Assembly (NCBI GenBank): GCA_021772915.1
Contig: JAJFLB010000026.1
Coordinates: 62,001-126,000, forward strand
Length of the DNA: 64,000 nucleotides
Source of the DNA: Gammaproteobacteria bacterium
GTDB lineage: Bacteria > Pseudomonadota > Gammaproteobacteria > Xanthomonadales > SZUA-36
Direction: 5' to 3'
The notes under the pieces are model-generated. The model ran no database searches. It saw nothing but the letters and a program-made list of their open reading frames with translations, and was not told the origin of the DNA. The position numbers and the translations under genes are program-made. Position 1 is the first letter of the stretch. Each line of letters starts with the position of its first letter. Shown piece after piece: positions 2,659-56,805 of the stretch.

Positions 2659-2661
2659 TTA

Positions 2662-4686: not shown

Positions 4687-4717
4687 GTGGCATTTGTGGA
4701 GCAAGCGAGGTTGGAAA

Positions 4718-12106: not shown

Positions 12107-12169
12107 AACCGGCGTAATGGAAAACCGGCACGAACCCGACCAAGCAAACCGGGGAACGAGGACAGGCAA

Positions 12170-12511: not shown

Positions 12512-12551
12512 TATAAATCAGTGTTATACAGTTCTTTATTAACTTTGATCA

Positions 12552-13700: not shown

Positions 13701-13705
13701 GTCGA

Positions 13706-13711
13706 TATAAT
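13706..13711 (+). promoter_or_regulatory. Consensus -10 hexamer TATAAT before dinB
   Basis: TATAAT lies in the 20 bp between the aminotransferase start (13700) and the dinB start (13721). Transcription from it would begin only a few bases before the dinB GTG, so the message would be almost leaderless. No good -35 is visible, so this is tentative. I see no convincing LexA box nearby. Confidence 0.3.
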
Positions 13712-13720
13712 GAGTCCATT

Positions 13721-14911
13721 GTGACTGCAAGCGCAAATTTTGAGACTCAGCCGCGGGCCATCATTCATGTAGACATGGATGCATTTTATGCATCTGTGGA
13801 GCAACATGACCAGCCAAAATACCGCAACCAACCAGTGGTAGTAGGCGGCGCTGGCGGCCGCGGGGTGGTCGCCGCAGCCAGTTACGAAGTTCGGAAGTTT
13901 GGTGTGCACTCGGCCATGCCGATGACACGTGCCCTGCGACTTTGTCCGCAGGCGGTCGTACTGCCGGTGAGAATGTCACGTTACAGGCAGGTGTCTGCTG
14001 AGGTCTTCAGTGTATTTCGTGAGTCAACCCCACAGGTGGAGGGATTATCCCTGGATGAAGCGTTTCTGGATGTCTCAGCAAGCCTGGCCCTGCTCGGCAG
14101 CGTCGAGACGATTGGCGCATCACTGCGGGCGGAAATACTTAAACGAACAGGTCTGCATGCTTCGGTGGGTATGGCGCAGAACAAGTTCCTGGCCAAGTTG
14201 GCATCAGATGTTGGCAAGCCCAAGGGATTTGTCCATGTTGCCGATGATGGTGTGCGGTCTTTTCTGGACCCAATGCCGGTGGCCAGAATTTGGGGGATTG
14301 GCAAGCAGACGCTGCCAAAAATCCAAAAACTCGGTATTTTGACCATCGGGCAGTTGCGCAAAGCAGATCCCGCAGTGCTAAAGCAGGTATTGGGAAAGCG
14401 AACCGAACACTTCCTTGCCCTGGCACGTGGTGAGGACGAGCGTGAAGTTGTTGCCAGCAGGCCGGAAAAGTCGATTAGCCGCGAAGTGACTTTCGAAAAG
14501 GATGTCAGCAAACCAAAAGTATTACTGGCTGAATTGCAAGCCCAGGTCGAATCGGTTACCGGACGTTTGCGTTCACAGGGGCTGCTTGCCCGCACTGTCC
14601 AGATCAAGGTCCGTGACCCCCGTTTTCGTACCGTTACCCGCAGCCTGACTCTGACCGCGCCCACGGCCAGCACCCAGGTCGTGTTCAAACAGGCACGGCG
14701 ATTACTGCAGAAGTGGTTAGGGGAGCATCTAAACACGCCACTCAGGTTGCTTGGCGTTGGTCTAGCAGGACTCGAGAGTAGCGCGGAACAGGGGGTTGAA
14801 ATTGATACGACGAAACAAAAAGCGCTGGACAAAACGTTGGATGCTATTAACCGTCGCTACGGCGATGGCAAAGCCACACGTGGACTGGCGATGAATATTG
14901 GAAAAAAATAG
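13721..14911 (+). CDS. dinB: DNA polymerase IV (Y family)
   Basis: 396 residues from the GTG at 13721. The palm motif VDMDAFYASVEQ carries the first metal-binding Asp18, and Phe22 is at the steric-gate position. SLDEAFLDVS carries the second acidic pair. GIGKQT marks the helix-hairpin-helix, and a little-finger domain follows. It performs error-prone translesion synthesis. The frame extends to 13619, but that would put the N-terminus inside the opposite gene, so the GTG is preferred. The C-terminus lacks an obvious clamp-binding QxxLF motif. Confidence 0.93.
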   Translation: MTASANFETQPRAIIHVDMDAFYASVEQHDQPKYRNQPVVVGGAGGRGVVAAASYEVRKFGVHSAMPMTRALRLCPQAVVLPVRMSRYRQVSAEVFSVFRESTPQVEGLSLDEAFLDVSASLALLGSVETIGASLRAEILKRTGLHASVGMAQNKFLAKLASDVGKPKGFVHVADDGVRSFLDPMPVARIWGIGKQTLPKIQKLGILTIGQLRKADPAVLKQVLGKRTEHFLALARGEDEREVVASRPEKSISREVTFEKDVSKPKVLLAELQAQVESVTGRLRSQGLLARTVQIKVRDPRFRTVTRSLTLTAPTASTQVVFKQARRLLQKWLGEHLNTPLRLLGVGLAGLESSAEQGVEIDTTKQKALDKTLDAINRRYGDGKATRGLAMNIGKK

Positions 14912-37692: not shown

Positions 37693-37768
<76 letters not shown>

Positions 37769-37782
37769 GGTTTTATCCCCGA

Positions 37783-37856
37783 GGCCAGGTGGCAGAGTGG
37801 TTATGCTGCGGCCTGCAAAGCCGTCTACGCCGGTTCGATTCCGACCCTGGCCTCCA
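37783..37856 (+). tRNA. tRNA-Cys (anticodon GCA)
   Basis: A 74-nt cloverleaf. The acceptor GGCCAGG pairs with CCTGGCC, the anticodon loop is CTGCAAA, and the T-loop is GGTTCGATTCC. CCA is encoded. It follows tRNA-Gly by 14 bp, as in the E. coli glyW-cysT-leuZ operon, but no tRNA-Leu follows here. Confidence 0.97.
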
Positions 37857-42506: not shown

Positions 42507-42814
42507 ACATCGTAACCTGTTGAGTTCAACCGATTGGCGAAGCCGCAGTGTACCTTGATCAGCACCACGGTTGCAGACTTTGACTGCTTGCCAACTTGTT
42601 CGATTACCGGTGGTGTACGCGCCCCCGCGTTCCCTGCTAACCTTAATCATAGCAAAACCATCGAAACCACTCCAACGTATAGTTGATTTATCTCCTATGT
42701 CTTCAATCATCAAGCTGACTCCAGGAACGGCGCATGTAATACTCAACGCAGGAACCTTATTGACGCCAGAGGTTCAAACTGAACTTGCCGGTTCCATGAT
42801 TGACAGTTAATAGG
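42507..42814. other. 308 bp divergent intergenic region
   Basis: It separates the giant repeat protein (minus) from the lipoprotein (plus) and must contain both promoters. I see no recognised riboswitch or clear promoter boxes. A short plus-strand frame ending at 42810 could encode a small peptide ending ELAGSMIDS, but it lacks a Shine-Dalgarno and is not called. Confidence 0.4.
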
Positions 42815-44788
42815 GTGCACTCAATTTCCGATTATTCACAACGCATGTTAGCGCTCATCCTGATACTGGCCTTCAGTTTTGTTGTCAGTGGTTGTGCAGG
42901 CACGGCTCAAGGTGTCGACACGTCCGTCTATTCTCGTCTGAAAGCAGATGAGGTTTTGGAGCAAGCACCTTCCGGCTCGTCCGCCATGGTGATTATTCGT
43001 TATCCGGCCATGATCCATGCCGATGCGGAAAACCTGTATGTGAGCTCTTTTGCAATTAATGCGATAGGTGGTGAGGTTCCGTACGCCGAGTACAGCAAAC
43101 CACAGACATCGAGAGTCGCGCAATCCGTCATTGAGAAATCCAGTTACTACGCGATGTCACTTTACAATGAACTGAAGAAAATTCTTCCCAAGGACTCTGT
43201 ATTACTTTCACCGCATATCGTGGTCTGGGACAAAGAGAGAAATCTGCACAGTCGTCCAATTCTCGCCACGGAACAGATACCCAGTGTATTAACCGTAGAT
43301 TTCAATATTTATTCCTACCCGGATGTTAACAAGTTAATGGATGCGCCCCCGGTCACTTTTGGAGACCTGGTGACACCAATGATTGTCGTCAAGAGCAATC
43401 GCTGGATCCAGCCGGCCCTGAACGGTCTGTTGATTTCCAGTCGCCCCTTGATCAGCTCGGCCTGGCGCCAGACTCAAAACGAAACTGAAAAAGCCCTTGC
43501 GATGCGGCTAGAGGATGTCATCCGGTATCAGCCTCCCTCACTGGATTTCATTGCTTTTTTGCGTGAGAGAAATGAGCAAAACACCACCTTGCCACTCAAG
43601 ACCAACGGCAAAGGCAACGGAATTAAAGCTGCCATTGAACCCTATTCAGTGGAAAAGATACAGATGAGCGGTGCTGCCATCACCAGGCTTCCGGAAGACT
43701 TCTCTGCAGATCCGTTCGTACCGGGTTTCGTGCGCGGAGCGAGTACACGCATAGTTGAAGTTCTGAACTCTATTGATCACAACCGGGCGACATTTTTTGC
43801 ACGACAAATTGCCTTGAATCGTTTTGATACCGAGTTGGCAAAGGTATTCTTTATCCAATCAACAGACGAGAGTATTCGGGCGCGCATGTTGCTGGCCGAT
43901 GCCCTGATTGGCGCAGAGCGCGAGTTTCTCGCCGCCCAGTCTGAGAGCATTTATGCCGGGACTTACACCGGCAACTATGGCTTGAAGATGCGCAGGATCA
44001 TTGCGGCTGAGTATCATATGCTTGAAGAGCGACGACAACTGGCCAGAACTCAGAATGTAACGACTGCCGTCGCGGTGATTGGTCTGGCAGGTGCCGTCTA
44101 CGGGGCGGCGGTGGCATCAACTGCGGCGAGTACCGCTGCTGTGGCAGCAGCCTCGGCAGGGGCTCTTACCGGATCCGTCTGGGCGATGCACAATGCCAGG
44201 GACATCAGGGCTGAATCCGGGGAAGTCAGCAGGTATTTTCTCGCCCGCATGGCGCCGGCTTTTGACCGGCAAATGTCTGTGCAAATGGAGTGGCTGGAGT
44301 CAAAGGAACTCATAACCGCACGTGGGTTCGCAGAATTCAGAAACAAAACGCTGAGCTTGTATCAGTCGCGAGTTAGATCCATGAGTATCAACGCCGAGCC
44401 GCAATGCCGGTTTACCCATCCGGATTTTGTGCAGGATGGACGTTGGTTTGGTGTCTGTGCCAATAACCGGGCTTCCGGCAGAGGTTATGGGCTGATTGTT
44501 GCTGATAATGGTGACTCACTTGAGTTTATCGGTGATGCCGAGCAGGGTTTGGCCTCCGGCCAGGGCGGCATGATCATTCGGCGCGGCAGGCAAGTTGCCA
44601 CGACCTATTACGAAGGTGGATTCAAGCAGGGCTTGCCCGATGGGGTTGTACGCATTCAAAAAACCGGGGCGCCCACACGCGTGAGGAAATTCAGCAACGG
44701 AGCTGATGTTGGCAAAGGCAATCCGGACGGACTGCGGCGACTTGAATTTGCCACCAGTACACCAGCGCAAAATTTGTCCATCCAATGA
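42815..44788 (+). CDS. Large predicted lipoprotein with C-terminal MORN-like region
   Basis: 657 residues if started at the GTG 42815, which gives an Arg before the hydrophobic signal; an ATG at 42845 is the alternative. The lipobox is VVSGC. Residues about 30-400 are an unrecognised alpha/beta region. A Gly/Ala-rich hydrophobic stretch near residues 420-455 (AGAVYGAAVASTAASTAAVA) could enter the membrane. The C-terminal 90 residues (ASGRGYGLIVADNGDSLEFI, FKQGLPDGVVRIQ) look like degenerate MORN repeats. It overlaps the next gene by four bases. Confidence 0.65.
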   Translation: MHSISDYSQRMLALILILAFSFVVSGCAGTAQGVDTSVYSRLKADEVLEQAPSGSSAMVIIRYPAMIHADAENLYVSSFAINAIGGEVPYAEYSKPQTSRVAQSVIEKSSYYAMSLYNELKKILPKDSVLLSPHIVVWDKERNLHSRPILATEQIPSVLTVDFNIYSYPDVNKLMDAPPVTFGDLVTPMIVVKSNRWIQPALNGLLISSRPLISSAWRQTQNETEKALAMRLEDVIRYQPPSLDFIAFLRERNEQNTTLPLKTNGKGNGIKAAIEPYSVEKIQMSGAAITRLPEDFSADPFVPGFVRGASTRIVEVLNSIDHNRATFFARQIALNRFDTELAKVFFIQSTDESIRARMLLADALIGAEREFLAAQSESIYAGTYTGNYGLKMRRIIAAEYHMLEERRQLARTQNVTTAVAVIGLAGAVYGAAVASTAASTAAVAAASAGALTGSVWAMHNARDIRAESGEVSRYFLARMAPAFDRQMSVQMEWLESKELITARGFAEFRNKTLSLYQSRVRSMSINAEPQCRFTHPDFVQDGRWFGVCANNRASGRGYGLIVADNGDSLEFIGDAEQGLASGQGGMIIRRGRQVATTYYEGGFKQGLPDGVVRIQKTGAPTRVRKFSNGADVGKGNPDGLRRLEFATSTPAQNLSIQ

Positions 44789-45546
44789 ATTACAAACTTA
44801 TTCTTGTGGGTCTTGTTTTTAGCACTTTCTTGAAGGCAAGCGGCGATACCCAAATGGAAACGTTCGACAGTCTTCCACCGGGTGAACAATACCGTCAACT
44901 TAGCCTCGTACTACTGATATCCGGAGACGCAAATCCGGGGCTGGTGGACACACTGCTGCCTTTTACCCGGGATAGTGCACAGAGCAAATTTGATCCTGAT
45001 GATTACAAGACGCCGCTGGCCCGCATTGTTGACCAACAGTCCATGCTTGCGGGTGCTGTATTTTTGTTGCAGTTTGCGCGAGATTCCCATGCTGAAATAC
45101 TGTCAAAACTAGCTTCCCTCATCAGAGATAATCCTGTTTTGATCAGCATGTTGGACGTTCATGCAATGACTGAGGACGCCATCATTATTCGTAACGCCAT
45201 AGCCGACAGTATCAGTTATGCAAACACCAGTGAAAATCCAAGCCTTACAGCGCAGGTGTTGGGCTATCGTACCCAAACAATACATCTGCGAAACATGCTG
45301 GAATATGAGCTCTTCAGCGCAGAACTGAAAAAAATAACCCACGAGGCTATCCTTACCCTGGGTGGCAAGCTGGATGCTTACCAGCGTATGTTTGATGAAG
45401 AAGTGGACACAAAGGAACATACCCGGAATTTTGACGCGGCACAGTTTATTTTTAATCGTTCCGAGAAATTTGACGAACATGCGGGCAAGCTAACCGAGGA
45501 GATCATGCGAAGTGTGATTTTGTCCCAAAGCCAGCCTGATTCTTAA
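44785..45546 (+). CDS. Predicted secreted helical protein, unknown function
   Basis: 253 residues. A short signal peptide (YKLILVGLVFSTFLKASG) is followed by an almost entirely helical body rich in Asp/Glu/Ser. I recognise no family. The ATGA overlap with the lipoprotein gene implies co-translation and a shared role. It is convergent with the minus-strand kinase operon, only 9 bp away. Confidence 0.6.
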   Translation: MNYKLILVGLVFSTFLKASGDTQMETFDSLPPGEQYRQLSLVLLISGDANPGLVDTLLPFTRDSAQSKFDPDDYKTPLARIVDQQSMLAGAVFLLQFARDSHAEILSKLASLIRDNPVLISMLDVHAMTEDAIIIRNAIADSISYANTSENPSLTAQVLGYRTQTIHLRNMLEYELFSAELKKITHEAILTLGGKLDAYQRMFDEEVDTKEHTRNFDAAQFIFNRSEKFDEHAGKLTEEIMRSVILSQSQPDS

Positions 45547-45555
45547 AGATGATGG

Positions 45556-46482
45556 TTAACCGTCGTCGTTCTCCTGTTCTTTGTTTTCATCGACTGGTGG
45601 CTCGCCAATGCCTCGCTCAACGATCACACCACGGGCGTTTACAAGGTCTTTAATCGCCAGGGTTCCGCCCGGCAAAACTAACTCCCCGGACACCTTTGAG
45701 TCGGTCTGTTGTTGGCCATTCGCGTGATTGCCACCGGTCAGAAATTCCAGGGCGTTCTGGGAGATACCCACGGTGGCGCTGGAATTGGATGCGGCGCTGG
45801 CATTCGGTGAGTAGCCGTCAACAGCGGTACTTTCACGACCCATATTTTGCTCCTGGCTTGCCTGGTCACCCGCGTTTTTGCCATCCCCTTTTCCGTTGTC
45901 AGCGTCTTCCCCGTGATCGCTTCCTTCACCCTGGTTGGTAGCGGATGCGGTCGCCGAGTTTGACCTTGTCGAATTTGCATAAATTTCTGCTTCACGCTGG
46001 TGGTACTCACCGAGCAATTCAGCCCATGCTTCCGCTTCGAGTTTTTGCAATGACTGGTTGGTACGCGCCGCTTCGCTGGGGGTATAGGGGTGATCCACCT
46101 GTTCATCTCCGGGTTTCCATTGCTCACCCTGCAGGATCACCTCCCGCAGTTGATTACGCAGATGCTTTTGAGAATCCTCGGGTAGCTCGTCGATCTTTTG
46201 CAGGTTTCCCTTAGGTTGGAATACTGTTTCGGGAATGAAATCCCTTTCCCGTTGCACGTCTTTGAGTTCCATAAAATGCCGGTAGGTATCTTCGGATACA
46301 TCCACTTCCCGGCTTGACGATTCAGACGGCTCCTCCGGTGTTTTCCCGGTATCAACCCCGGTATCAACCTTGCCCGCCTGAATCTCATCATCCTGCGTTG
46401 TTCCGGTCAACGGGAGCAGGACCCAGGCAATCAGCAATAGACTCAGAATGTGTGTTCGTTTGTTCATATTGGTCAAGTTCAT
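45556..46482 (-). CDS. Predicted exported acidic, low-complexity protein
   Basis: 308 residues. The start overlaps the kinase stop (ATGA at 46479-46482), which indicates translational coupling. An N-terminal signal (HILSLLLIAWVLLPLTG) is followed by an acidic segment, a helical part about residues 60-175, a Ser/Asn/Gly-rich disordered stretch about 175-255, and a final SGELVLPGGTLAIKDLVNAR. No family recognised. As the last gene of the operon it may be an exported substrate or accessory of the membrane complex. Confidence 0.6.
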   Translation of the reverse strand: MNLTNMNKRTHILSLLLIAWVLLPLTGTTQDDEIQAGKVDTGVDTGKTPEEPSESSSREVDVSEDTYRHFMELKDVQRERDFIPETVFQPKGNLQKIDELPEDSQKHLRNQLREVILQGEQWKPGDEQVDHPYTPSEAARTNQSLQKLEAEAWAELLGEYHQREAEIYANSTRSNSATASATNQGEGSDHGEDADNGKGDGKNAGDQASQEQNMGRESTAVDGYSPNASAASNSSATVGISQNALEFLTGGNHANGQQQTDSKVSGELVLPGGTLAIKDLVNARGVIVERGIGEPPVDENKEQENDDG

Positions 46483-48920
46483 TCTACTATCGAGCGGGCC
46501 AGCCTGAAACCCGTGAAATCATTACGATCACCATTGTTGAGGTTAAACCGGGCAGGCAGTCTGATCTCCTTGCTGCCGGTAATCCATGAGCCACCCCGGG
46601 TCATGTGCGAACTACACATTCCCCGACCCCAGGCGCTACCGTCCACGGGTGCGTCGAGATAGGACAGGTTCATGCAGTCTGAGGTCCACTCGGCAACATT
46701 GCCAATGACGTCAAATAGGCCAAATGCATTGGCTTTATAGTTACCCACCGGGGCGGTTCCCAGGGCCAGCCTGTCGCCACATTCCTTATGTTGCCAACGA
46801 AACCCCGTTTCACTGCCGGCGATGTTGCCGAATTCACATAAGCGGGTGGGATCACTGCCCAGCCACTCACTTTCTTCACCCGCCCGGGCGAAATATTCCC
46901 ATTCGCTTTCACTCGGCAAGCGATAGCTTTGACCCGTCTTCTCACTGAGCCAATGCACGTATTCCTCGGCGTCCGACCAGGAAACCATGATCACGGGTCG
47001 GTCGGCTCTACCCCAACCATTGTCCCCGGGTTTTGACTGACAGCCGCCGGCGTCAAAGCATGCATCCCACTCGGCCATGCTTACCTCATGAATACTGACC
47101 GCAAACGGTTGCTCTATGGCAACCAGTCTGCGTGGTTTTTCCATACCCAGTGCGTAGGGTGAAGAGTCATCAGAGCCCTGCCAGTACGTACCTGCCGGAA
47201 CCACCTTCAGTAGTGGGCAATCAGGACAGTCCCGGAAAGTTTTGCCCGGACGCAGGGTCAACTCATCCATATGCTCAAGTGCCGCCACGACCTGCGTGCC
47301 ACGTGGGAATGCGTCTATGTAGGCCTGGAACGCGTCTTTTGTGTTCAGTTTCTGTGCCGTCGTAAACGCTTTTTCGTCGTTGGACTGGTCCGTTAGTTCA
47401 CGGTGCATGCGTCTGGCATCAGCTAGATACAAACCCGTGGGCCATTCGGCTATGTACTGGTCCAGTGCCTCAATTGTTGCCGTGGTTCGCGCGTTTTCCC
47501 AGGCCAGCTTTTCCAGCCGCTCCTGCTCCAGCTGCTGTCGCTTCTTACGTGCTTCTTCCTGATTTATCGTGTCAATCCTGCGCATGGCTTCTTGCTGGTG
47601 AATCCCGTCAGGAAAGAACTCCAGATAGTCCGCATAGGCCACCACGGTGTCTTCGGCGGCCAACTCTTGCCAGTGCTTATCATCCAGCACATCCAACTGG
47701 ATTTGTGCCTGGTCAAGATAGATCGAAGTGGGGAAATCCGCCATGAAACGCCGGTAGGCAAGAATCGTGTCCGCCTTCAACGCGGTCTGCCATCGACTGG
47801 TTTCCCGGGTTGTTGGTTGTTGCACCACCGGGCCGGTGTCCTTCAGGTCCAACTCGACACCCTTATCCGGCGTGGAAACGACTGCGGACTGATCCGGTAT
47901 CCAATCGGTGAACAGATAAATGCCCATTCCGATCATGATGATTACAAAAGCGCTGAGCAGTATCAGGGGCAACCACTCCCGGTCCTCATGTGGATAGTCC
48001 CCAGTATCTGCTTCAGTGGTGACCGAATGTCGCCAATCCAGACTCTCGAGCGACATCCTCCATTGTTCTACGTCGCGCGGTCGGTCTTGCGGAAGAATTT
48101 TCAAGCCCGTTTCAATGGCATCCGCAAGGCCGCCGGAAGATTCCGTGCTGACCCGTTGCGAAAGTGGTTCCAGCGGATCCTCGGCACCTGTCTCGAATTC
48201 TGACCGCCTGGTCGTTGCGGGTACCGGGATAACCCCTGTAACACATCGATACAGCGTTGCCGACAGGGCATAAATATCCGTCCAGGGCCCCATACGGCCC
48301 TCCGGTGTGGATTGCTCCCACGCGGCATAGCCTTCACTGCCGAGCCTGGCAACACCCGCTTCACTGTCGTTGGCTTGTGCCGCTACACCGAAATCAAGCA
48401 ACAGGGGGGTGCCATCTTCACATAGATAAATATTGGCGGGTTTAATGTCCTGATGAACAACACCTTGCTGGTGGATATACTCAAGCCCGTCCATCATGGG
48501 CAACAGCACGGCCCGGGCTTGTTCGACCGTAAAAACGCCGTCTGACCTGAGTGCCTTATCCAGTGACCGGCCCTCGTAGTAGGGCATCAGGAAATAGGCG
48601 GTGTCATTGGCTTCAAAGTACCTCAAGACCTTGACGATATTTGGATGATCAAGCGTTGCAAGCAGGCGGGCTTCAGCGAGGAACTGTTTGAGCCCTGTTG
48701 CAAAGGCTATTTTCGCCGCGTCGTTCTTTGGTGCGATTCCGCCATCCTCGTCCCTGAGTACGTATTGCGCGGGCAAGTATTCCTTGAGTGCAAAAGTCGT
48801 TCCGATAGCAGGGTCGGAGACAAGGTAGGTGTTGGCAAAAGTGCCTTCGCCAAGAATGCTGCGGACCTGCAGGTCACCAATAAGGGATCCTGGCTGGAGG
48901 GTTTGGGACAGTTCGCTCAT
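46479..48920 (-). CDS. Transmembrane Ser/Thr protein kinase with C-terminal FGE/sulfatase-modifying-factor-like domain
   Basis: 813 residues. Kinase domain about 13-290: glycine loop GEGTFANTY, Lys46, Glu83, catalytic loop HQDIKPAN (Arg of HRD replaced by Gln), DFG at 176-178. One membrane helix (LPLILLSAFVIIMIGMGIYL) spans about 317-337. Then come helical repeats of the A-x-x-Y/F-x-x-FP-x-G type with a charged coiled coil. Residues about 575-813 form an FGE-like domain (VPAGTYWQGSDDSS, FGLFDVIGNVAEW, RGGSW, FTGFRLARS). The FGE catalytic cysteines are missing after RGGSW, so sulfatase activation is unlikely. It overlaps the FHA gene upstream by four bases. Confidence 0.88.
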   Translation of the reverse strand: MSELSQTLQPGSLIGDLQVRSILGEGTFANTYLVSDPAIGTTFALKEYLPAQYVLRDEDGGIAPKNDAAKIAFATGLKQFLAEARLLATLDHPNIVKVLRYFEANDTAYFLMPYYEGRSLDKALRSDGVFTVEQARAVLLPMMDGLEYIHQQGVVHQDIKPANIYLCEDGTPLLLDFGVAAQANDSEAGVARLGSEGYAAWEQSTPEGRMGPWTDIYALSATLYRCVTGVIPVPATTRRSEFETGAEDPLEPLSQRVSTESSGGLADAIETGLKILPQDRPRDVEQWRMSLESLDWRHSVTTEADTGDYPHEDREWLPLILLSAFVIIMIGMGIYLFTDWIPDQSAVVSTPDKGVELDLKDTGPVVQQPTTRETSRWQTALKADTILAYRRFMADFPTSIYLDQAQIQLDVLDDKHWQELAAEDTVVAYADYLEFFPDGIHQQEAMRRIDTINQEEARKKRQQLEQERLEKLAWENARTTATIEALDQYIAEWPTGLYLADARRMHRELTDQSNDEKAFTTAQKLNTKDAFQAYIDAFPRGTQVVAALEHMDELTLRPGKTFRDCPDCPLLKVVPAGTYWQGSDDSSPYALGMEKPRRLVAIEQPFAVSIHEVSMAEWDACFDAGGCQSKPGDNGWGRADRPVIMVSWSDAEEYVHWLSEKTGQSYRLPSESEWEYFARAGEESEWLGSDPTRLCEFGNIAGSETGFRWQHKECGDRLALGTAPVGNYKANAFGLFDVIGNVAEWTSDCMNLSYLDAPVDGSAWGRGMCSSHMTRGGSWITGSKEIRLPARFNLNNGDRNDFTGFRLARSIVE

Positions 48921-50413
48921 GTCGCTGCCGTCTTCGCGGTGACGGTCTTGATCTGCAAATGAAGATTCCCGAGCTGAATTTCGTCAGCAGGATCAATAAA
49001 CATGATCTCACCGGGCAAGCAGGGAATACCCCTGATAAAACTGCCATTGCTTGAGTTCAGGTCAGCAAATGTCAGAAAACCGTCCCTGCCTTCCAGACGA
49101 GCGTGACTTCGACTGATAGCTGGAGATTCCAGCTTGAGATCGGCACCGATTCTACCAATGACAATATCGAATTGTTCTGAATTAACCATGCAAAAACGTC
49201 TAAAGTGAACCTTATCGGCAAGACCCTCAAGCAAGACATAGCCGTCATATCCAGCGGGCAGCTTGTCCAGATTCGGTAGTTCGTCTGCTTCCGCACAGCT
49301 TGCCGCAGAATCAAGTAAAGGACTGTCTTCTGCAGATTGCAGCACCGCAGTACCCGGTTCATCCGAGTCAACCAACGGACGTACTGCATCGGTCAGGGAG
49401 TCCGATTGCCTGGAAGGTCTGGTGCTTCTGGAGAAAAATTTCATCGCAACCGTAACCATTGCTGCAACGACGATCAACGCAAGCAGTTGCTGCCATGGGG
49501 ATAAAAACGGCGCGGATTCGTCACCTGTAGCCACACTATAAACGGGTTCTTCATAATCCTTGGCGCTTGTGTCCAGGTCTGGTATGGATTCGGCCTTCTC
49601 ATCGGGCGTCAGCTCCGCTGGCCGTTCCTCGCTTACCGGGGCTGGTTCTTCAGTGGCTTTGGACCCGGTGGCACTGGCTGCTTCTTGCGACTCTGGAACG
49701 TCGGGGACCTGGTCTTGAGCAGGTGTATTACAACTGGCAGTAGATAAGCTGACGTTAACTGAATCAAGCACCCGCACCAGGTCAGCGAAAAAAACAGTGG
49801 TTGGGTTCTTGCTTGCATCCAGGCTTTGCTCGCCACGCGCCAGGTTCAACCCAAACAGCAGTCCACACTGATCAATAATCGCACCGGTCACATTGGGCAG
49901 GGGGGTTGCGGGCGAGGCTGAAGTTTTTCCGCTTGAGTCATGCTCAGTGACGGTTACCGGCACCCACAGTGGCTGCTCACCTGCGGCAATGCCCCTGGCT
50001 GGTGGAAATGCCGTCAGGTGCAGCACACGAGCCACTGGCAATTCATCATTTGTGTCAGTCTGTGACAATTCTACGGCCGGTCTGTTGAGGCCTTCGACCG
50101 CGAGCAACGCCAGCTCACCCGAGGACGAGTGTTTTACCACCCTTGCGGGTCGGCCATACCTGGAGATATCAGTACCACCATCGAGCACGACAATTTCATC
50201 ACTCTCGATGGCAAACCCCGCAGAGATGACGATTAGACCGGTATCCGACACGACCAGACCCGTAGTCGGCTTGACATGAGTTGCTGACACCAGTTTGAGG
50301 ACCAGCACAATCGAATCCGAACCTTGAACCGGCTCCTCAGCCATGACGGGCTGGGTAGATAACAGAATGATGCCCATTAGCAGCAACAGGCGTGAAGGGG
50401 ATCGGGCAATCAT
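48917..50413 (-). CDS. Membrane protein: trypsin-like pseudoprotease domain plus C-terminal FHA domain
   Basis: 498 residues. A signal peptide (LLLLMGIILLSTQPVMA) is followed by an HtrA/trypsin-like barrel. Where the active triad should be I read ISAGFAI (no His), GELALLAV (Glu for Asp) and VTGAIIDQCGLL (no GNSGG Ser), so it is probably inactive. An acidic/Pro-rich linker precedes a membrane helix (LLALIVVAAMVTVAMKFF, about 310-330). The cytoplasmic FHA domain about 405-490 has the phosphothreonine-binding residues in SPAISRSHARLEG and LNSSNGSFI. Located between kinase and channel genes, it likely links outside sensing to phosphorylation inside. Confidence 0.78.
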   Translation of the reverse strand: MIARSPSRLLLLMGIILLSTQPVMAEEPVQGSDSIVLVLKLVSATHVKPTTGLVVSDTGLIVISAGFAIESDEIVVLDGGTDISRYGRPARVVKHSSSGELALLAVEGLNRPAVELSQTDTNDELPVARVLHLTAFPPARGIAAGEQPLWVPVTVTEHDSSGKTSASPATPLPNVTGAIIDQCGLLFGLNLARGEQSLDASKNPTTVFFADLVRVLDSVNVSLSTASCNTPAQDQVPDVPESQEAASATGSKATEEPAPVSEERPAELTPDEKAESIPDLDTSAKDYEEPVYSVATGDESAPFLSPWQQLLALIVVAAMVTVAMKFFSRSTRPSRQSDSLTDAVRPLVDSDEPGTAVLQSAEDSPLLDSAASCAEADELPNLDKLPAGYDGYVLLEGLADKVHFRRFCMVNSEQFDIVIGRIGADLKLESPAISRSHARLEGRDGFLTFADLNSSNGSFIRGIPCLPGEIMFIDPADEIQLGNLHLQIKTVTAKTAAT

Positions 50414-50441
50414 TGGTTTTAGTGTAGCCAGTCTCCCCGCA

Positions 50442-51185
50442 TCAGGGAGAGTAGAGCCGGTTAATCAGGTTATCGAGGCAATATTGCCCCGCTTTGTTAA
50501 GTGAGTTCTCCTCTTTGCCCTGGATCATGTTTTGCAAAAAAACCAGGATGGCTGCCATGACCAGGGCGACCAGTGTTGTGCTGAACGCCACACCCAGTCT
50601 CTCCGTCACCTGGTACAACATTTCGGGGCTCTCCACATTGGCCCTGTCACCGGCGTAGTTCAACGCCAGCATGATACCTATGACAGTACCGATAAACCCC
50701 AGCGAAGGGATCAACCAGGTAATGTAGCGAATGATGTTGTAGCGCAGGTCGAGCTCGTGAAGGAACAACTCAAGACTGGAGTTCAGCAACGCATTGGTTT
50801 GGTCTACAGACTGGCCGAGGTTGAAATTGAGCACGCAGCGCTCGATCAAACGTGGCAGAAAACAGGTGCTACGGTACTTGCTGCTGCGTACCTTTTGGTA
50901 AATGGGTGTCATGTCATCACCGGGACGCAGTACGGTTGCTTCGTCCAGTGGCAGGTAATCCCGTTCAAACTGGCTTTCTTCCAGGCGGCTGGTGCGCCAG
51001 CGAATCGTCAATTCACCCAAACCGGCAAAAAAAGCCAGCCAGAGGATGTTCTGAACCGTAAATGGCCACGAAGCGCGTTTGATATCCAGCAAAATGGCGG
51101 CCGCATCGGCCGGTAAAACCCGAGCCAGCAAGGCGATCACCAATATTGCTGTGAGCAGGCTGACGAGGAGCGTTAGTTGACGCAT
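50442..51185 (-). CDS. MotA/TolQ/ExbB-family proton channel subunit
   Basis: 247 residues with four predicted helices: about 3-22, 40-60, 155-177 and 198-220. The last two carry the family signature, LIPSLGFIGTVIGIMLAL and ERLGVAFSTTLVALVMAAIL. A cytoplasmic segment of about 90 residues lies between helices 2 and 3. Such proteins form pentameric rings that turn around a dimer of ExbD/TolR/MotB-type subunits using proton or sodium flow. No ExbD/MotB gene is adjacent, but the two upstream VWA genes have suitable N-terminal helices. Confidence 0.85.
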   Translation of the reverse strand: MRQLTLLVSLLTAILVIALLARVLPADAAAILLDIKRASWPFTVQNILWLAFFAGLGELTIRWRTSRLEESQFERDYLPLDEATVLRPGDDMTPIYQKVRSSKYRSTCFLPRLIERCVLNFNLGQSVDQTNALLNSSLELFLHELDLRYNIIRYITWLIPSLGFIGTVIGIMLALNYAGDRANVESPEMLYQVTERLGVAFSTTLVALVMAAILVFLQNMIQGKEENSLNKAGQYCLDNLINRLYSP

Positions 51186-51204
51186 TGTTTTGACCTAAAA
51201 TAAT

Positions 51205-51618
51205 TCATTGCTTGTCTTCTTCTATTCTTCCCGTCACCAGGTTTCGTCTTGGTTTGTGGAGTAATGATTCTGGCTCCGACCAATCCGCGGACAATCCGCC
51301 TTGCTTTGCACGCCGTCGCAGGGAAAAGTGCTTGGGGCCAAGCCGGGCCTTGCTACGCTTTCCAAATACGGCAGTCAGGTGTTCCAAACTGACCTCTTTT
51401 TCTCCCATGCGGATGCGATCACCGATACACAGAGAGACCCGCTTGACCCTTATCCAGCCGTCGTTACGTTGCAAAAACGTCCCGTTGCTGGAATCGGCAT
51501 CAAGTAAGAAGACATGACCATCGTCAGCCAGTTCAATTTTGACATGAACACGGGATACGGTTGGGTCCTCAAGGACAAGATCACAGGTGGGCTCTCGTCC
51601 GGCAGTTTTGAGTTTCAA
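51205..51618 (-). CDS. FHA domain protein
   Basis: About 137 residues from the TTG at 51618, which has GGAG nine bases upstream. The same frame runs back to a TTG at 51765 inside the VWA gene, but no ATG or GTG is available, so the start is uncertain. FHA residues are in GREPTCDLVLEDPTVSRVHV and DADSSNGTFLQR, with Arg/Ser/Asn positions for phosphothreonine. The C-terminal 45 residues are basic (KARLGPKHFSLRRRAKQ). No membrane helix is seen, so it is probably cytoplasmic and reads out the operon's kinase. Confidence 0.75.
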   Translation of the reverse strand: MKLKTAGREPTCDLVLEDPTVSRVHVKIELADDGHVFLLDADSSNGTFLQRNDGWIRVKRVSLCIGDRIRMGEKEVSLEHLTAVFGKRSKARLGPKHFSLRRRAKQGGLSADWSEPESLLHKPRRNLVTGRIEEDKQ

Positions 51619-51703
51619 AAGGAGTGTCTCCGGTAGGTAGATGGGTTGCAGCCTGACGCCGATATGATAACACCGGCCGACGCACTTCCCCGTGCTGAAT
51701 AAT

Positions 51704-52642
51704 TCACTGTGCCAGCGCCAGAAATCCGCCGGAGTTGGCCCTTGCCAGGGCCTCCATGAATTCAACAGTACCCTTGTACTTGAAGTAATCCCCGACGGTC
51801 ACCGCATGAATTTCTTTCGACCCGGTATTCGCCTGCGTGATGTTCTGTACCAGTGCCCTGGGTGGCAGATCGTTATTGAAACTGGGGTTTGGAAGCCCGT
51901 CACTGAACAGGACAATGGCTTGCGCGGGGCTGTCGAAGGCCATTTTAAATGCACTTTGAAGTGATGACCCACCGGCAAACTTGCCGTTAAGCTGACGTAC
52001 AAAGCGCATGGCCTGTGTCTGGTTGGGGCGATTCATGGCGGCCAACCGGCCGTCCTCAGGCCAACGGTAATAGCGTGGGCCCGAGTCCAATTGCTGAAAG
52101 CCGAGGATTGCGAATTCGTAACCGGGTCGCAATGAATCCAGCACTCTTGCCACAGATTTGAACATCAACAGTTGGTGTGTCGACAGGTATTTATTCATGT
52201 CGATAAGTAAAATTAACCGGAGTTTGTCGGTCTTGAGCCCAAGGAATCTGAAGGTAACCAGATTACTCCCCAGTTCTTCTTCCGTTTCCACCGGTGCGGG
52301 TGGTGGCGAGGGTGGCTGTTTCTTACGTGCCTGCAGCAAGGCGAGAATTGTTTCCATTTCGCTGCTGACCAGGTCTTGTTCGGCTCGCAACTGTGATTGA
52401 CGTGTCTGTGCGTTATGCAAGGAGGCACGGGTATTGTCGAGCCCCAGGCGGGTGTCATCGAGTAAATCCTCTGTCTGGCCGGCCAACGACTCTATGTACA
52501 TCAGGTGCCCTTCCAGGCGCACCTCTTTTTGGTAATCCGGCATGAGAATTATGGTGATAACGATAAATGCACCCATCGCCGAGGCGAACAAATCAATTGC
52601 CGACAGTGAAAACACGCCCAGACTACGCAGTCGCGTTCTCAT
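51704..52642 (-). CDS. Membrane-anchored VWA protein with degenerate MIDAS (B subunit candidate)
   Basis: 312 residues. A short cytoplasmic tail leads into FSLSAIDLFASAMGAFIVIT, one membrane helix starting with Asp17. A coiled coil (about 45-108) and Pro-rich linker precede the VWA domain (about 125-312). The metal site DxSxS reads D148-M-N150-K-Y152, so metal binding is doubtful, although LFSDGLPNPS is kept. The N-terminus and layout are close to the next protein, so the two are paralogues. It overlaps that gene by four bases. Confidence 0.8.
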   Translation of the reverse strand: MRTRLRSLGVFSLSAIDLFASAMGAFIVITIILMPDYQKEVRLEGHLMYIESLAGQTEDLLDDTRLGLDNTRASLHNAQTRQSQLRAEQDLVSSEMETILALLQARKKQPPSPPPAPVETEEELGSNLVTFRFLGLKTDKLRLILLIDMNKYLSTHQLLMFKSVARVLDSLRPGYEFAILGFQQLDSGPRYYRWPEDGRLAAMNRPNQTQAMRFVRQLNGKFAGGSSLQSAFKMAFDSPAQAIVLFSDGLPNPSFNNDLPPRALVQNITQANTGSKEIHAVTVGDYFKYKGTVEFMEALARANSGGFLALAQ

Positions 52643-53568
52643 CTCGACACACCTACAAAATCTCCGCCATTTAGACGAGCCAGGGTTTGCATGAAAAGCA
52701 CCAGGTTGCGGTTATGCGTGTAATCGCCAATGGCCACTGTGTGTATTTCTGTACGCCGAAATTGGTTAAGCTTGGTAATGTTCTGGAGGATAAAACCCGG
52801 AGAGGAGTTTGGTTCACCGTCGGACATCAGAATGATCGCGCTTGATGGGTACTCCAAAGCCGCGTGCAAGGCAAAATGGGTAGGTGTTGAGCCGACAAAC
52901 TGGCGCGCCAATGACTGTGTAAAAGCAACCGCGGACTGAAGATTATCCGGGTTGGCAATCAACATGCTGGCATCGCTTGGGAATCTCCACAGAACGGGTT
53001 GTGGATTCCCATGGTAGCCAATAATGGCAAACTGATTGCTTGCATCCAGCGGTTGTAAAATTTCCAGCACCGAACGCACCATCAAGGCCTCGTATTGCAT
53101 CATGCTACCGGACATATCAATGACGATTACAAATGACTTTACCTCGGAGGCAAGACCCAGTATTGAGAATTTCACACCATCGGTCAGGGCCAGAACTTCC
53201 GGTTCAGGGGGTTGGATTTCGGTAGGCTCGGTGATGACAACAGGCAAGTCCGCCAGCTGGCTTTCAATATCAGCTATCTTCTTTCTTGACCTGGAAATGC
53301 TCTGTTCGGCCCCCTGGTTGAAAGCAGTAATTTGTGTCAGCTCCTTCTGTACTTTTTCCTGCTCAGCCTGGACCTCCTCAAGTTGGCCGGTCGTAAGCCG
53401 ACGTTTTTGAGTGATCTCCTGGGTTTTTGAAAACGCATCATTCGTGCCTGCGTGGCGATAGTAAGGAAATAGCAGCATGACCAGCAATATGAAAGCACCC
53501 AACGCTGAGGCGAACAAATCGATGGCAGAGGTCGAAAAAACAGCGATGTCTCTTGCAGGTAGTCTCAC
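52639..53568 (-). CDS. Membrane-anchored VWA protein with intact MIDAS (B subunit candidate)
   Basis: 309 residues from the GTG at 53568. FSTSAIDLFASALGAFILLV is the single membrane helix with Asp17 near its cytoplasmic start. A coiled coil follows (about 45-107). The VWA domain (about 130-309) has an intact DMSGSM (151-156), a Thr in STPTHFAL and LMSDGEPN. The layout (short tail, helix with Asp, periplasmic domain) copies ExbD/TolR/MotB. First gene of the minus-strand operon. Confidence 0.82.
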   Translation of the reverse strand: MRLPARDIAVFSTSAIDLFASALGAFILLVMLLFPYYRHAGTNDAFSKTQEITQKRRLTTGQLEEVQAEQEKVQKELTQITAFNQGAEQSISRSRKKIADIESQLADLPVVITEPTEIQPPEPEVLALTDGVKFSILGLASEVKSFVIVIDMSGSMMQYEALMVRSVLEILQPLDASNQFAIIGYHGNPQPVLWRFPSDASMLIANPDNLQSAVAFTQSLARQFVGSTPTHFALHAALEYPSSAIILMSDGEPNSSPGFILQNITKLNQFRRTEIHTVAIGDYTHNRNLVLFMQTLARLNGGDFVGVSR

Positions 53569-53610
53569 GGCACCAATGTTCGCTTAAATGAGTAAAAGTT
53601 GACAGCGCAA
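53569..53610. promoter_or_regulatory. Very short divergent promoter region between the VWA operon and the CHAT gene
   Basis: Only about 40 bp separate the two starts, and the sequence is AT-rich. A TTGACA (53599-53604) and a TATAAT (53631-53636) are visible on the plus strand, but 26 bp apart, too far to pair. Promoters for both sides probably overlap the 5' coding ends. Confidence 0.35.
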
Positions 53611-56600
53611 ATGCGATTTATGTTCAATATTATAATGACATTCAGATTAACAGGACCGGCACCGGCGATAGATACTCTACGGTCATCCACTTGCCTGATC
53701 CTGGGCTTACTATTTGCCCTCGCTGTGATGACGCAGTCCGTGGTGGCCCAGGAGAACAGCTCCCGCGAGCAGCAGGAGTACTTTGTCCATCAAAATGCGG
53801 ATGAGGCATTGTTGATCAGGATCAACACCTTCGAAGCCGATTTCGAAGTCAGCTTGCTCGATCCAGAGGGCAGACCATTGCTTGTCTCGAAAATTGGCAA
53901 CAGCCGTCTGGTTCCGGTATTTCAATTCGTTAACGCAGTCAGGAGTCCACGACAACTCGATATCAGGGTATTTTCCGACCAAAACACCCGTCGTAGCAAA
54001 TTCAGTCTTGGCCTTACCCGGATTACCATCTGGGACGACAGAAGTGAGCGACTGGCACAGGCATATCAGAATCTGTCTTTTGGAGCTGAGACACTCGTGA
54101 CGGAAACGCCGGCGAACTGGACGGTGAAAATCAACAGCCTAATCAAGGCAGCCGGTGTGTTTCAAAGCATGGGTATGAAGGAACTGGGTGCCTGGTCCAC
54201 GTACCTGGCTGCACACCTCATCCATTTTCACCTCCACGACTACAGCATCGCGCTTGACATGATCCGTGACATTTTGGCGGATCTCAAAGGGTCCCGGTGG
54301 CAGGAAATCATCCTGGCCACATTGCAATTGCAAAGTGACACACTCATCAAACTGCGGGAAGCAGGTTCTATGCGAGTTTCTGCATCTGGTGCGGACAAGG
54401 TTCAAACAGCTTTGTTGCAAGTAGCAGAACTCGCCAAGTCCATGGATTTTCAATACGAAAGAGCGCTTGCCATCAAAAAAAGCGGGGCAGAATATGCATC
54501 CCGATCAATGTATCCACAGGCCCTTGAGCAGTTTCAGCTGGCGCTGGAGATTGCTGAATCAATCGGTGATGACAAGCTGGCCACTGCGATTCGGGAAAGT
54601 ATCGTACAGGTGCATACAAACCAGGGGGACACGCCGGCATCAGGTACCGTTTTGCGGGAGATTGAGGCACAACTGACTACCCGGGAGGCCGGTGAAGCCC
54701 TGGCCGTTAACTTGCTGCAGCAGGGTCGCCTGTTGATGTCTGGTTACCAATACACGCAGGCAATCAACGTACTGTTGCAGGCACTGGAGCATGAAAATGA
54801 CAGTGCGACCCGTCGGCAAATCAATTTTGAACTGGCGAGGGCACTCTATGAATCCGGTGATTGGGGGCAATCCCTGGGCTACGTTCTTGCAGCACAAGTG
54901 TACCGTGGGCCGGGAATTGTCCAGCGGCCCAATTCTACAATTGATATTGGTGAAGGCTTGAGAATTCTGGCCAACATATACCGCACCCAGACAAATTTTT
55001 CGCAAATGAAGCAGGTCAGGAGGGCCCAGGGACAATTTATTCGATCCGGGTTGGGAACAACCGGAGACAACTATGCTGGTTACCTCTATGAGAAGGGGCT
55101 GGATGAACGCACTCAGGGGATCAGTGCGCGTGGGCGGGCACAAGCCTTGTTCCGGCAAAGTTACGAGGCAGCAGCCGGAGGTGGCTGGTCACCCCTGGAA
55201 CACCTGTCACGGTTACAGTTCTGTGCCTTAATGAGACCGGTAGACAAGGCGTTGGCGTTTTGCTCACCCACCGCTACACGCAAATCTTATGATGCACTCC
55301 ACGCCAACGGTTCGTTGAGACAGGTCGTCGAAGCCATGTACCTGCGGGCAAAATTCCTGGTAACACGCGGCAAACATAACCAGGCCATTACACTGCTGGA
55401 CGGGTTGGTTGCTGAAGTTCACTTCCTTCGCGACACACTCCCCGGGGGATTGGGCGCCTGGTATTGGCAACGGGCCGAGACGATTTTTGAGTTTTATCTG
55501 ACATTGCTGATGACCGCTGAAGAGCAGGGCGGTGTTCAGGATGAAATCAACGGTCTCCAGTCGCTCCTGGCGCTCAGCAGGATCAGGTTTGCCATGGGAC
55601 CTAGCCCGGCGCCGGGCGACCTCGCCGCGGAAGTTGAGCAATTAAGAGTTTCGTTAACGCAATCTGACGGCAGGAATCGCCCTGGAGACGCGAGCAGTAC
55701 AAAAAAACATGATGACAAACAGATGGAATCACTCCGTTCGCAGTTCAGACAGAGGTTCAGGTTCCTGTCTAAAACCGGCGTACAAAAACATGTGCGCGGT
55801 CTCAACAAGAATGAAGCCGTGCTCACTTATCATATTACCCCTTCAGCCGCCCACCTGTGGATCGCCGGCAAAGGCAGGATTACCCGCCGGCGGTTAGCTG
55901 GTGCACAAGCGATCCAGTCGACACTGCAGGCCGCACGTAACGGTCTGTCCGGAGTTGGCGGTGCAGCGTTCGAGCAACAAATTGGCCAGTTGGGCAAATA
56001 TTTGATCGCACCGGTTGCAGATTCGCTACCGGAGACCATCTACTTGATTCCGGCCGGTCCCTTGCTGGGTTTTCCGCTGGACGCCATACGACACGACGGG
56101 CATTACCTCGCCGAACACCACAATGTGGTTAACCTGATGTCTTTCCCGGCCCGACCCAGGCCGTCCGAATACTTACGTGTGGGTAGCACCAAACCACGTG
56201 AATTCTTCCTGGCCGGCCATCCACAGGACTACGTTGCCGGATACGCAAGTCAATTGGAGACCTCGACTGAGGTTCAGGCGGTAGCGCGTATATTTGTCGG
56301 TCCGGGTTTGCACATTGTTCAGGGCCGTGCCCTGCTGGCAGACGAATTTCACGACCCACGATTCCAAAGGGCAGACCTGGTTCATCTGGCGATGCCGGGG
56401 GTCATTGACCCGCAACATCCAGGACATTCAAGCCTGGAGCTTTCCGAGGCCGGCCGTGGTCTGGGCAGGGAAAGCATTGGCTCTGCAGATATCCAGAAAT
56501 TTGCATTGAAAGCAAACCTTGTTTTCCTGAGTGCAACCAGAATTGGGGCTGGCCCAAGTGGGAAGTTTGAGCATCGACTGGGGATTGTTTCCGGTTTTCT

Positions 56601-56805
56601 GGACGCCGGTGCCCAAGCCGTGGTCAGCAGCCTCTGGACCAGCGATGGTGATGTTGGCAAACAGTTTGTGGCGGACTTTTACCACCGTTTGAACACTTCT
56701 GGAAACATTGTCACAGCGCTGGCTGACACCAAGCGTCAGTACCTGGTAAACCCAGGGGTAGGCAAACCGGCTGACTGGGCTGGTTTACAGCTTTTTACCA
56801 AGTAG
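53611..56805 (+). CDS. Exported TPR-CHAT domain protein, probably catalytically inactive
   Basis: About 1064 residues. The start is uncertain: ATG 53611, ATG 53635 or TTG 53599; none has a good Shine-Dalgarno. A signal peptide (LILGLLFALAVMTQSVVA) implies export. A beta-rich N-domain about 40-150 is followed by TPR-like helical repeats to about 700 and a CHAT domain in the last 330 residues (LIPAGPLLGFPLDAIRHDG, ADLVHLAMPGVIDP, LVFLSATRIGAG). The usual CHAT His (H-G motif) is Pro and the nucleophilic Cys (S-A-C) is Thr, so protease activity is unlikely. Divergent from the VWA operon. Confidence 0.8.
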   Translation: MRFMFNIIMTFRLTGPAPAIDTLRSSTCLILGLLFALAVMTQSVVAQENSSREQQEYFVHQNADEALLIRINTFEADFEVSLLDPEGRPLLVSKIGNSRLVPVFQFVNAVRSPRQLDIRVFSDQNTRRSKFSLGLTRITIWDDRSERLAQAYQNLSFGAETLVTETPANWTVKINSLIKAAGVFQSMGMKELGAWSTYLAAHLIHFHLHDYSIALDMIRDILADLKGSRWQEIILATLQLQSDTLIKLREAGSMRVSASGADKVQTALLQVAELAKSMDFQYERALAIKKSGAEYASRSMYPQALEQFQLALEIAESIGDDKLATAIRESIVQVHTNQGDTPASGTVLREIEAQLTTREAGEALAVNLLQQGRLLMSGYQYTQAINVLLQALEHENDSATRRQINFELARALYESGDWGQSLGYVLAAQVYRGPGIVQRPNSTIDIGEGLRILANIYRTQTNFSQMKQVRRAQGQFIRSGLGTTGDNYAGYLYEKGLDERTQGISARGRAQALFRQSYEAAAGGGWSPLEHLSRLQFCALMRPVDKALAFCSPTATRKSYDALHANGSLRQVVEAMYLRAKFLVTRGKHNQAITLLDGLVAEVHFLRDTLPGGLGAWYWQRAETIFEFYLTLLMTAEEQGGVQDEINGLQSLLALSRIRFAMGPSPAPGDLAAEVEQLRVSLTQSDGRNRPGDASSTKKHDDKQMESLRSQFRQRFRFLSKTGVQKHVRGLNKNEAVLTYHITPSAAHLWIAGKGRITRRRLAGAQAIQSTLQAARNGLSGVGGAAFEQQIGQLGKYLIAPVADSLPETIYLIPAGPLLGFPLDAIRHDGHYLAEHHNVVNLMSFPARPRPSEYLRVGSTKPREFFLAGHPQDYVAGYASQLETSTEVQAVARIFVGPGLHIVQGRALLADEFHDPRFQRADLVHLAMPGVIDPQHPGHSSLELSEAGRGLGRESIGSADIQKFALKANLVFLSATRIGAGPSGKFEHRLGIVSGFLDAGAQAVVSSLWTSDGDVGKQFVADFYHRLNTSGNIVTALADTKRQYLVNPGVGKPADWAGLQLFTK

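Follow-up and report, generated by a model that had tools for sequence, protein, structure and literature searches.

The 64,000-nt window of gammaproteobacterial DNA analyzed here contains, at positions 42815..56805, a gene cluster that includes a MotA/TolQ/ExbB-family channel gene (motA) and two genes for proteins with a VWA domain (vwaA and vwaB). The cluster likely encodes a motor of the 5:2 class, driven by the proton motive force, that has a heterodimer of VWA-protein helices as its axle, carries unequal periplasmic heads of the adhesion type, and is tuned by a kinase and FHA proteins where these are present. In the mechanism that we infer, five copies of the MotA/TolQ-like A subunit would assemble into an inner-membrane wheel, with an axle made of the paired N-terminal helices of vwaA and vwaB, the B subunits. 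The Asp17 residues of the helices would exchange protons with a ring of Thr167 and Thr204 residues of the A subunit, and the proton flow would turn the wheel against the axle, moving or straining the two unequal heads in the periplasm, one a putative metal-binding VWA domain and the other a VWA domain with a degenerate metal site. The envelope partners on which the heads act would most likely be a periplasmic domain with the fold of formylglycine-generating enzyme (FGE) and a conserved lipoprotein, so that force would be directed towards the outer membrane. Where present, a transmembrane kinase–FGE protein, two FHA proteins, and, in relatives, a PP2C protein would tune the motor through phosphothreonine, with control presumably running from these proteins to the motor.

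A first-pass annotation of the window had proposed that the VWA pair supplies the B dimer of the MotA-like channel. This part of the reading, a helix heterodimer as axle of the channel, is well supported by an invariant aspartate, co-occurrence with the A subunit at unlinked loci, the threonine ring of the A subunit, and a shared strand. As the annotation had noticed, both VWA proteins contain the segment AIDLFASA with Asp17. The best 80 of 187 related loci, obtained from a scan of named genomes, yield 5871 open reading frames (ORFs), on which we run a helix model of ten rows with the Asp column masked. All 129 matches at E<1e-10 carry Asp at the masked column. Three more helix genes (L102, L114, and L128) are clipped by the ORF caller past the Asp column, and the upstream frame shows the Asp; these vwaA orthologues (L102 4129, L114 7612, L128 8039) have no ATG, GTG, or TTG before the axle helix in the frame shown and may use CTG or some other rare start codon. 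At E<1e-3, a helix gene is present in 70 of the 80 loci, and exactly two are present in 62. Overall, 131 of 132 helix genes are on the same strand as the A gene. Six of the ten loci without a helix gene are cut at a contig end beside motA (L083, L090, L094, L095, L096, and L101), and for two of the other four (L103 and L138) the helix is found elsewhere in the genome. Six further genomes covered by that search yield previously found genes. Asp17 is also invariant in an alignment of 18 VWA or head-swapped proteins, 17 of which are 17–75% identical to vwaA, the remaining member. The hydropathy of the helix proteins is that of a single N-terminal transmembrane (TM) segment, with an extra borderline peak in vwaA at 132–150, at the edge of the VWA domain. 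As a control, none of four readable proteins among the window genome's other VWA_2 proteins (L189, L191, L192, and L193, with L190 left out) has an Asp-led first helix like that of Asp17; L191 has an Asp two residues ahead of its helix.

The annotation had suggested searching genomes for co-occurrence of the MotA-like protein with the AIDLFASA-VWA proteins. Among 274 genomes of the class, close A subunits (E<1e-100) and close helices (E<1e-15) are found in the identical six (G000, G091, G094, G149, G272, and G328). In two of the six, G091 and G328, the A gene and the helix gene are on different contigs. The helix genes of these two genomes are those of L052 and L055, and the L052 helix gene adjoins PP2C-like, protease-FHA, and kinase genes, constituting an unlinked version of the system. 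The same six genomes surfaced earlier in a vwaA-only search, along with three genomes that are either unrelated or carry a paralogous system also present in the window's genome (system 2, described below). In a sample of 398 genomes of the phylum, the A subunit is found in 15 and the helix in 14, with 14 shared, 12 of these from one family; all sharers except the window's genome are matches at the level of system 2. At that level the overlap in the class sample is imperfect, with the A subunit in 14 genomes, the helix in 15, and both in 10. The A subunit alone is found in G146, G157, G238, and G271, and the helix alone in G076, G101, G241, G269, and G313, although in G101 and G241 an A gene adjoins the helix gene.

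The A subunit matches PF01618 (MotA_ExbB) at 1.5e-13 with 51 bits, the cut-off being 22.9. It has strong hydrophobic segments at 6–24, 157–175, and 199–217 and a weaker one at about 45–62. Residues T167 and T204 are invariant in a 60-sequence alignment of A subunits, system 2 included. When the A-subunit profile is compared with the Protein Data Bank (PDB), TolQ chains rank first (E 6.6e-4); GFIGTV aligns with GLFGTV and AFxTT with ALIAT, so that T167 corresponds to T145 and T204 to T178 of TolQ. In TolQR, as described in PMC12583513, the T145/T178 polar ring of TolQ binds Asp23 of TolR, and D24 of ZorB packs on a similar ring according to PMC11890865. Proton exchange between Asp17 and the threonine ring of the cluster's motor would fit these alignments.

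Several observations weigh against a VWA-helix axle. Two A loci on short contigs, L140 and L141, belong to genomes in which no helix is detectable. The models used for co-occurrence contain rows from the very genomes in which they match (four of the six for the A model, A1; five of the six for the helix model, A5); this overlap inflates the E-values, but genomes with one part only would still have shown. In profile–profile comparison, the helix scores 0.5% against TolR/ExbD and 2.1% against MotB, with 2.5% for a signal-peptide control; against the PDB it retrieves only insect odorant receptors (E 1.5 and worse), evidently by chance. ZorB is the top match of the head-swapped set (A6), with D24 on Asp17, at a non-significant E of 0.22. 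Five loci (L078, L082, L084, L086, and L089) have an ExbD-type gene 8–10 kb away, beside its own ExbB-type gene. Finally, which partners the heads act on is a guess from synteny only. The helix profile of system 2 scores 7.6% against TolR/ExbD, with Asp on Asp, and 1.3% against MotB, controls reaching 1.7%. Homology of the axle helix to known B subunits is left unproven, as the helix of the cluster shows no significant profile similarity to TolR/ExbD or MotB and scores no better than the control.

The ExbD-type genes bear on a different arrangement, in which the VWA proteins bind at the side and transduce force, as TolA or TonB do, and an ExbD/TolR protein encoded elsewhere is the axle. PMC12204202 describes a first vWA family of the transducer kind, with an SHLS motif and beside tolR-like genes, and the window's genome does have ExbD-type genes, in addition to the five of 80 loci that have an ExbB/ExbD-type set within 10 kb. 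However, each ExbD-type gene seen adjoins its own A subunit, those of the window's genome being next to its other channel genes, and no ExbD- or OmpA-type domain, nor any TolA, TonB, or Pal domain, is found by Pfam in the ten cluster proteins. Likewise, no tolR/exbD/motB-like gene is found among the ten window proteins, or at 1e-4 in 75 of the 80 loci. The VWA helix has the invariant Asp, no SHLS-like motif is seen on reading the alignments, and the A subunit and the helix share the same six of 274 genomes. A side-bound role is therefore quite unlikely. In the five loci, the ExbB/ExbD-type set is at about 0.2–1.4 kb, beyond the CHAT gene as seen from the motor.

The heads carried by the axle helix are unequal. 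Helix proteins are assigned to the vwaA or vwaB type by best BLAST match to the window's pair, and seven that do not align through the head are set apart. At the columns of the metal-ion-dependent adhesion site (MIDAS), vwaA-type proteins (n=62) have D in 61, S in 60, S in 62, T in 60, and D in 62. The vwaB-type proteins (n=63) keep both aspartates (D in 63 and D in 63); in the columns of the two serines they show N in 49 and C or Y in 52, and the threonine is replaced by M or L in 59. One protein of each type is present in 55 of the 70 loci with a helix gene; the others have a single gene, two of the same type, or another combination. In vwaA, a long charged linker, a coiled coil by eye, lies between the helix and the periplasmic VWA domain. 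The same helix also bears other VWA versions (L054, L104, and L182, and by eye L123 and L149) and, in L052, L055, L100 (two proteins), L111, L115, and L183, a head without a recognizable VWA domain that is beta-sandwich-like by eye. No confident family is found for the beta-sandwich head. The strongest candidate is DUF2135 (lowest E 0.0076, two of six members), and the L183 head has no match at 0.01. The cluster could tentatively be seen as belonging to a phospho-wired 5:2 class in which a standard axle helix bears a metal-binding VWA, a degenerate VWA, another VWA, or a beta-sandwich, the commonest form being asymmetric so that each half-turn would present a different arm; we judge this nearly as probable as its opposite.

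The first-pass annotation had called the machine undescribed. This does not hold for the core, as a paper of June 2025 (Mol Biol Evol, PMC12204202), proposes helix-tethered vWA proteins as axles that rotate in TolQ-like pentamers and transduce force, with mostly heterologous vWA pairs, no tolR/exbD nearby, and AlphaFold 3 (AF3) models in which the Asp faces a Thr ring. The core of the present finding is independent support for that published prediction. In a word search, kinase, SUMF1, and PEGA are absent from the main text of PMC12204202, where FhaC is the sole match to 'FHA'; section 8 of the paper mentions neither a head swap nor a MIDAS asymmetry. Word searches of the accessible text of a conflict-system paper (PMC7159879) for MotA or TolQ and of a MotAB evolution paper (PMC12505986) for vWA are also without match. 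In the one open-access library searched, which leaves preprints and most subscription journals outside, we do not find in print a subfamily wired to phosphorylation, an asymmetry of the MIDAS between the two heads, a swap of heads, or the FGE and lipoprotein partners. The present motor resembles the TPH-vWA motors of PMC12204202 (an Idiomarina-seeded family, likened here by its description) in having a TolQ-like gene beside a heterologous vWA pair with a helix Asp, and differs from them in its kinase/FHA/PP2C wiring, periplasmic FGE fold, and non-VWA heads, which are not found in the text of that paper.

The cluster is real and conserved. The annotation had named an absence of conserved synteny as grounds for giving up its proposal; instead, gene order and content recur among relatives, with the same genes in the same order. 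Close channel orthologues are present in all nine other genomes of the genus searched, in 19 of 27 of the family, and in none of 24 from the rest of the order, three of which have a distant channel paralogue alone. The best 80 of 187 relatives include gammaproteobacterial metagenome-assembled genomes near the window, Thiomargarita, Parabeggiatoa, Latescibacterota, and Alphaproteobacteria such as Hellea, Algimonas, Litorimonas, Robiginitomaculum, and Kiloniellales. Many of the 80 loci end at contig boundaries, so BLAST tallies are lower bounds. With the window's own proteins and one PP2C protein of L051 (Pfam PP2C_2, 9e-15) as queries, matches are found in at least 72 loci for vwaA and 72 for vwaB (the two match each other, so these tallies are not independent), 59 for the FGE domain, 43 for fha, 42 for lipoMORN, 40 for the acidic protein, 37 for the kinase, 32 for the FHA domain of the protease-like protein and 27 for its protease domain, 25 for lipo2, 21 for CHAT, and 11 for PP2C. 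In two Alphaproteobacteria given in full (L125 and L132), a single strand carries lipoMORN, a small gene, the two VWA genes, motA, and an FGE gene in one line. Because lipoMORN is collinear with the motor genes there, the window's convergent gene pair is tied to the system.

Table 1 Genes and residues of the cluster in the 64,000-nt window
Feature	Position	Strand	Remarks
vwaA, B subunit 1	52639..53568	-	basic N-terminus; axle helix with Asp17; TM ~16-34; VWA with intact MIDAS residues
vwaA Asp17 codon, putative proton-binding residue	53518..53520	-	counted from ORF start
vwaB, B subunit 2	51704..52642	-	same axle helix with Asp17; MIDAS Ser/Thr replaced, both Asp kept
vwaB Asp17 codon, putative proton-binding residue	52592..52594	-	counted from ORF start
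Small FHA protein (fha), phosphothreonine reader	51205..51765	-	Pfam FHA
MotA/TolQ/ExbB-family A subunit (motA), putative pentamer wheel, 247 aa	50442..51185	-	Pfam MotA_ExbB
Degenerate trypsin-like domain, TM helix 310-328, and cytoplasmic FHA (protFHA)	48917..50413	-	homologues without Ser
Ser/Thr kinase (cytoplasmic), TM 319-337, and periplasmic FGE/SUMF1-fold 573-809, 813 aa	46479..48920	-
Exported acidic protein	45556..46482	-	no Pfam match; BLAST homologue in 40/80 loci
lipo2, small exported-looking protein without lipobox	44785..45546	+	homologue in 25/80 loci
lipoMORN, lipoprotein with Cys32	42800..44788	+	homologue in 42/80 loci
Pseudo-CHAT protein, divergent, weak TPR matches	53599..56805	+	21/80 loci

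The roster given by the annotation (two VWA proteins, an FHA protein, a MotA/TolQ/ExbB channel, a pseudoprotease-FHA protein, a kinase, and an acidic protein) is right in outline according to Pfam and the ORFs. Seven minus-strand genes (45556–53568) and three plus-strand genes are confirmed, most with family models: VWA_3 at 3.5e-9 and 3.7e-5 for the two VWA proteins, the second under the curated cut-off, FHA at 1.6e-14 and 2e-8, the kinase at 2.3e-37, and CHAT at 1.3e-30. The acidic protein, lipoMORN, and lipo2 match no Pfam family above its cut-off. The seven genes had been described as one overlapping minus-strand operon. The minus-strand run stands, but without overlap throughout: neighboring genes share 4 bases at three junctions, and the fha–motA and motA–protFHA junctions are short gaps. 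The vwaB–fha overlap is present only if a distant TTG start is used for fha, and the real start is probably downstream of that TTG, as most homologues align from about residue 50.

The kinase had been recognized as a transmembrane protein, which its domain and TM helix confirm, but its C-terminal part was missed. This part is an FGE-sulfatase (SUMF1-like) domain (PF03781, E 1e-45), for which the best NCBIfam model is PvdO (1.8e-50), followed by GldK (7e-19) and a weak GldJ. Each of its eight Cys is kept in 53–57 of 59 aligned homologues. RGGS[WFY] is present in 54 of the 59 FGE matches, and none of the 54 has a Cys within the next 22 residues; judged by the presumed catalytic motifs that we use for the CHAT, trypsin, and FGE domains alike, the domain lacks the catalytic Cys region of the formylglycine-generating enzyme. 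In the kinase domain, the Lys is kept in 31 of 36, the catalytic Asp in 30 of 35, and the DFG Asp in 32 of 35 readable copies. Several of the copies in the 37 loci are without the catalytic Asp or Lys; the HxDxKPxN loop is replaced by, for example, LSIAPEQ or ALSPEN, which hints that kinase activity was lost step by step.

The annotation had proposed that the motor is gated by the kinase through FHA readers. Phospho-gating is plausible, as genes for kinase, FHA, and PP2C proteins repeatedly accompany the motor. We build a tree of the A subunit (FastTree, 83 tips, four MotA fragments shorter than 230 aa left out), in which the labels of three added tips (L051, L054, and L058) are assigned manually; L051 is labeled as having a kinase, but none is found there. 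Deep branches of the tree include loci with kinase, FHA, and PP2C, and the window's relatives retain kinase and FHA. In contrast, an alphaproteobacterial group of 33 tips, 31 of them with an FGE match, retains the motor, but kinase, FHA, and PP2C are absent by BLAST; the one FGE protein scanned from this group (L125, 519 aa) has no kinase domain. The support of the group itself is low (0.369), and that of its union with the window's relatives is 1.0. Among relatives, Algimonas arctica KCTC 32513 and Litorimonas cladophorae KCTC 23968 have the kinase-free form of the cluster. Because this group keeps the motor, kinase and FHA cannot be part of the core mechanism; control by them probably goes far back but can be dispensed with. 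In these genomes, a kinase from another locus may still act.

The same comparison bears on whether the cluster is mainly a mechanosensor or signaling device, in which strain on the heads opens or turns the channel and kinase and FHA proteins read this out, instead of the kinase driving the motor. The kinase and the FGE domain do form a single polypeptide across the membrane, and the recurrence of kinase, FHA, and PP2C with the motor, down to deep branches of the tree, would suit such a device. However, the motor is kept without kinase or FHA in the 33-tip group, indicating that a kinase read-out is not the core function, and we consider a device of this kind unlikely.

The divergent CHAT gene is where the annotation had placed it, but it encodes a pseudo-CHAT protein: in the 18 readable homologues of 21, the catalytic Cys is kept in none, and Pro replaces the catalytic His in all 18. 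The gene is confined to the window's close gammaproteobacterial relatives. With a CHAT effector beside a Zorya-like motor, the cluster could be an anti-phage or cell-suicide system, and the channel does resemble ZorA2 weakly (1.5e-5), the kinase matches the PD-T4-6 and MAD6 models, and the CHAT gene lies divergently alongside. Zorya is marked by an OmpA-like domain in ZorB, a long ZorA tail, and ZorC/D or ZorE. The cluster would share with ZorAB a 5:2 motor with an essential Asp, but it has no OmpA-type domain, its A subunit is without a long tail, and no ZorC, D, or E model matches. The loss of catalytic residues in CHAT argues against an effector, and no CHAT is found in 59 of the 80 loci, many of them cut. 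Defense islands are usually patchier than the channel, given its distribution in genus and family described above. Thus, a role in defense or suicide is very unlikely. A PADLOC search for a defense system returns nothing beyond generic kinase and weak ZorA models.

In the window, the protease-like protein has no Pfam match to a trypsin domain; a relative with the same layout, L054, matches Trypsin_2 at 9.7e-30. The Ser of this domain is lost in all 24 readable of 27 homologues, and distant relatives keep GNSGGP. The convergent genes at 42800–45546 had been called a lipoprotein pair; the pair is there, but only its first member, lipoMORN, has a lipobox (VSGC), whose Cys32 is invariant in 39 aligned rows, and lipo2 has none. 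A hydrophobic segment of lipoMORN lies at about 420–438, and its C-terminal end is MORN-like by eye, with Pfam silent.

System 2 of the window's genome (L029, G000:C52:36000-52000, ~2229-14385) has a paralogous MotA-like protein, an FGE protein with PEGA domains, and a VWA pair. Like the cluster, it has a homologous axle helix (hhalign 97.7%, 1.6e-12) with a leading Asp. It differs in that the A subunits are about 30% identical, its FGE protein has PEGA domains and no kinase, a 422-aa protein without Pfam match lies between its A and VWA genes, and its lipoprotein-like genes are others. An M48-like protease gene, so named by eye, stands at its end.

Among known machines, TolQ–TolR and ExbB–ExbD share with the cluster the A-subunit family, the Thr ring, and a single Asp helix as axle; unlike theirs, the B head here is a VWA or other fold, and the B helix is not significantly similar by sequence. 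The ten proteins include no TolR/ExbD B subunit, TolA, TonB, Pal, or transporter and thus do not qualify as a Tol-Pal or Ton system. AglR–AglQ/AglS of Myxococcus gliding, according to a review of 5:2 motors, likewise combines one A with two different B proteins, and FHA is part of that machinery, the GltG model matching the cluster FHA domains in that region only; unlike here, no VWA axle subunits are described for Agl in the passages of that review covered here. GldLM with GldK/PorK of type IX secretion also pairs a motor with an FGE-fold partner, but PvdO is far better than GldK on the FGE domain here, and no other type IX secretion model matches the ten proteins except the weak GldJ, on the same domain.

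Next to the cluster, at 37914–42746 on the minus strand, the window contains a 1610-aa ORF for a large repeat protein, with a GC content of about 60% versus 51–55% around. The protein ends in a hydrophobic segment preceded by an IPxxxxW-like motif, which presumably resembles IPTL-CTERM sorting signals. Adjacent tRNA-Gly and tRNA-Cys genes lie just beyond it, at 37693–37856 on the plus strand.

If the proposed mechanism is correct, MotAB/TolQR-type motors would serve as a general chassis on which periplasmic heads can be exchanged, and which bacteria have coupled directly to Ser/Thr phosphorylation. Such motors are usually drawn as symmetric, and the MIDAS asymmetry offers a specific instance of a heteromeric axle that can be put to the test. 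The named strains with the kinase-free cluster put a deletion phenotype within reach.

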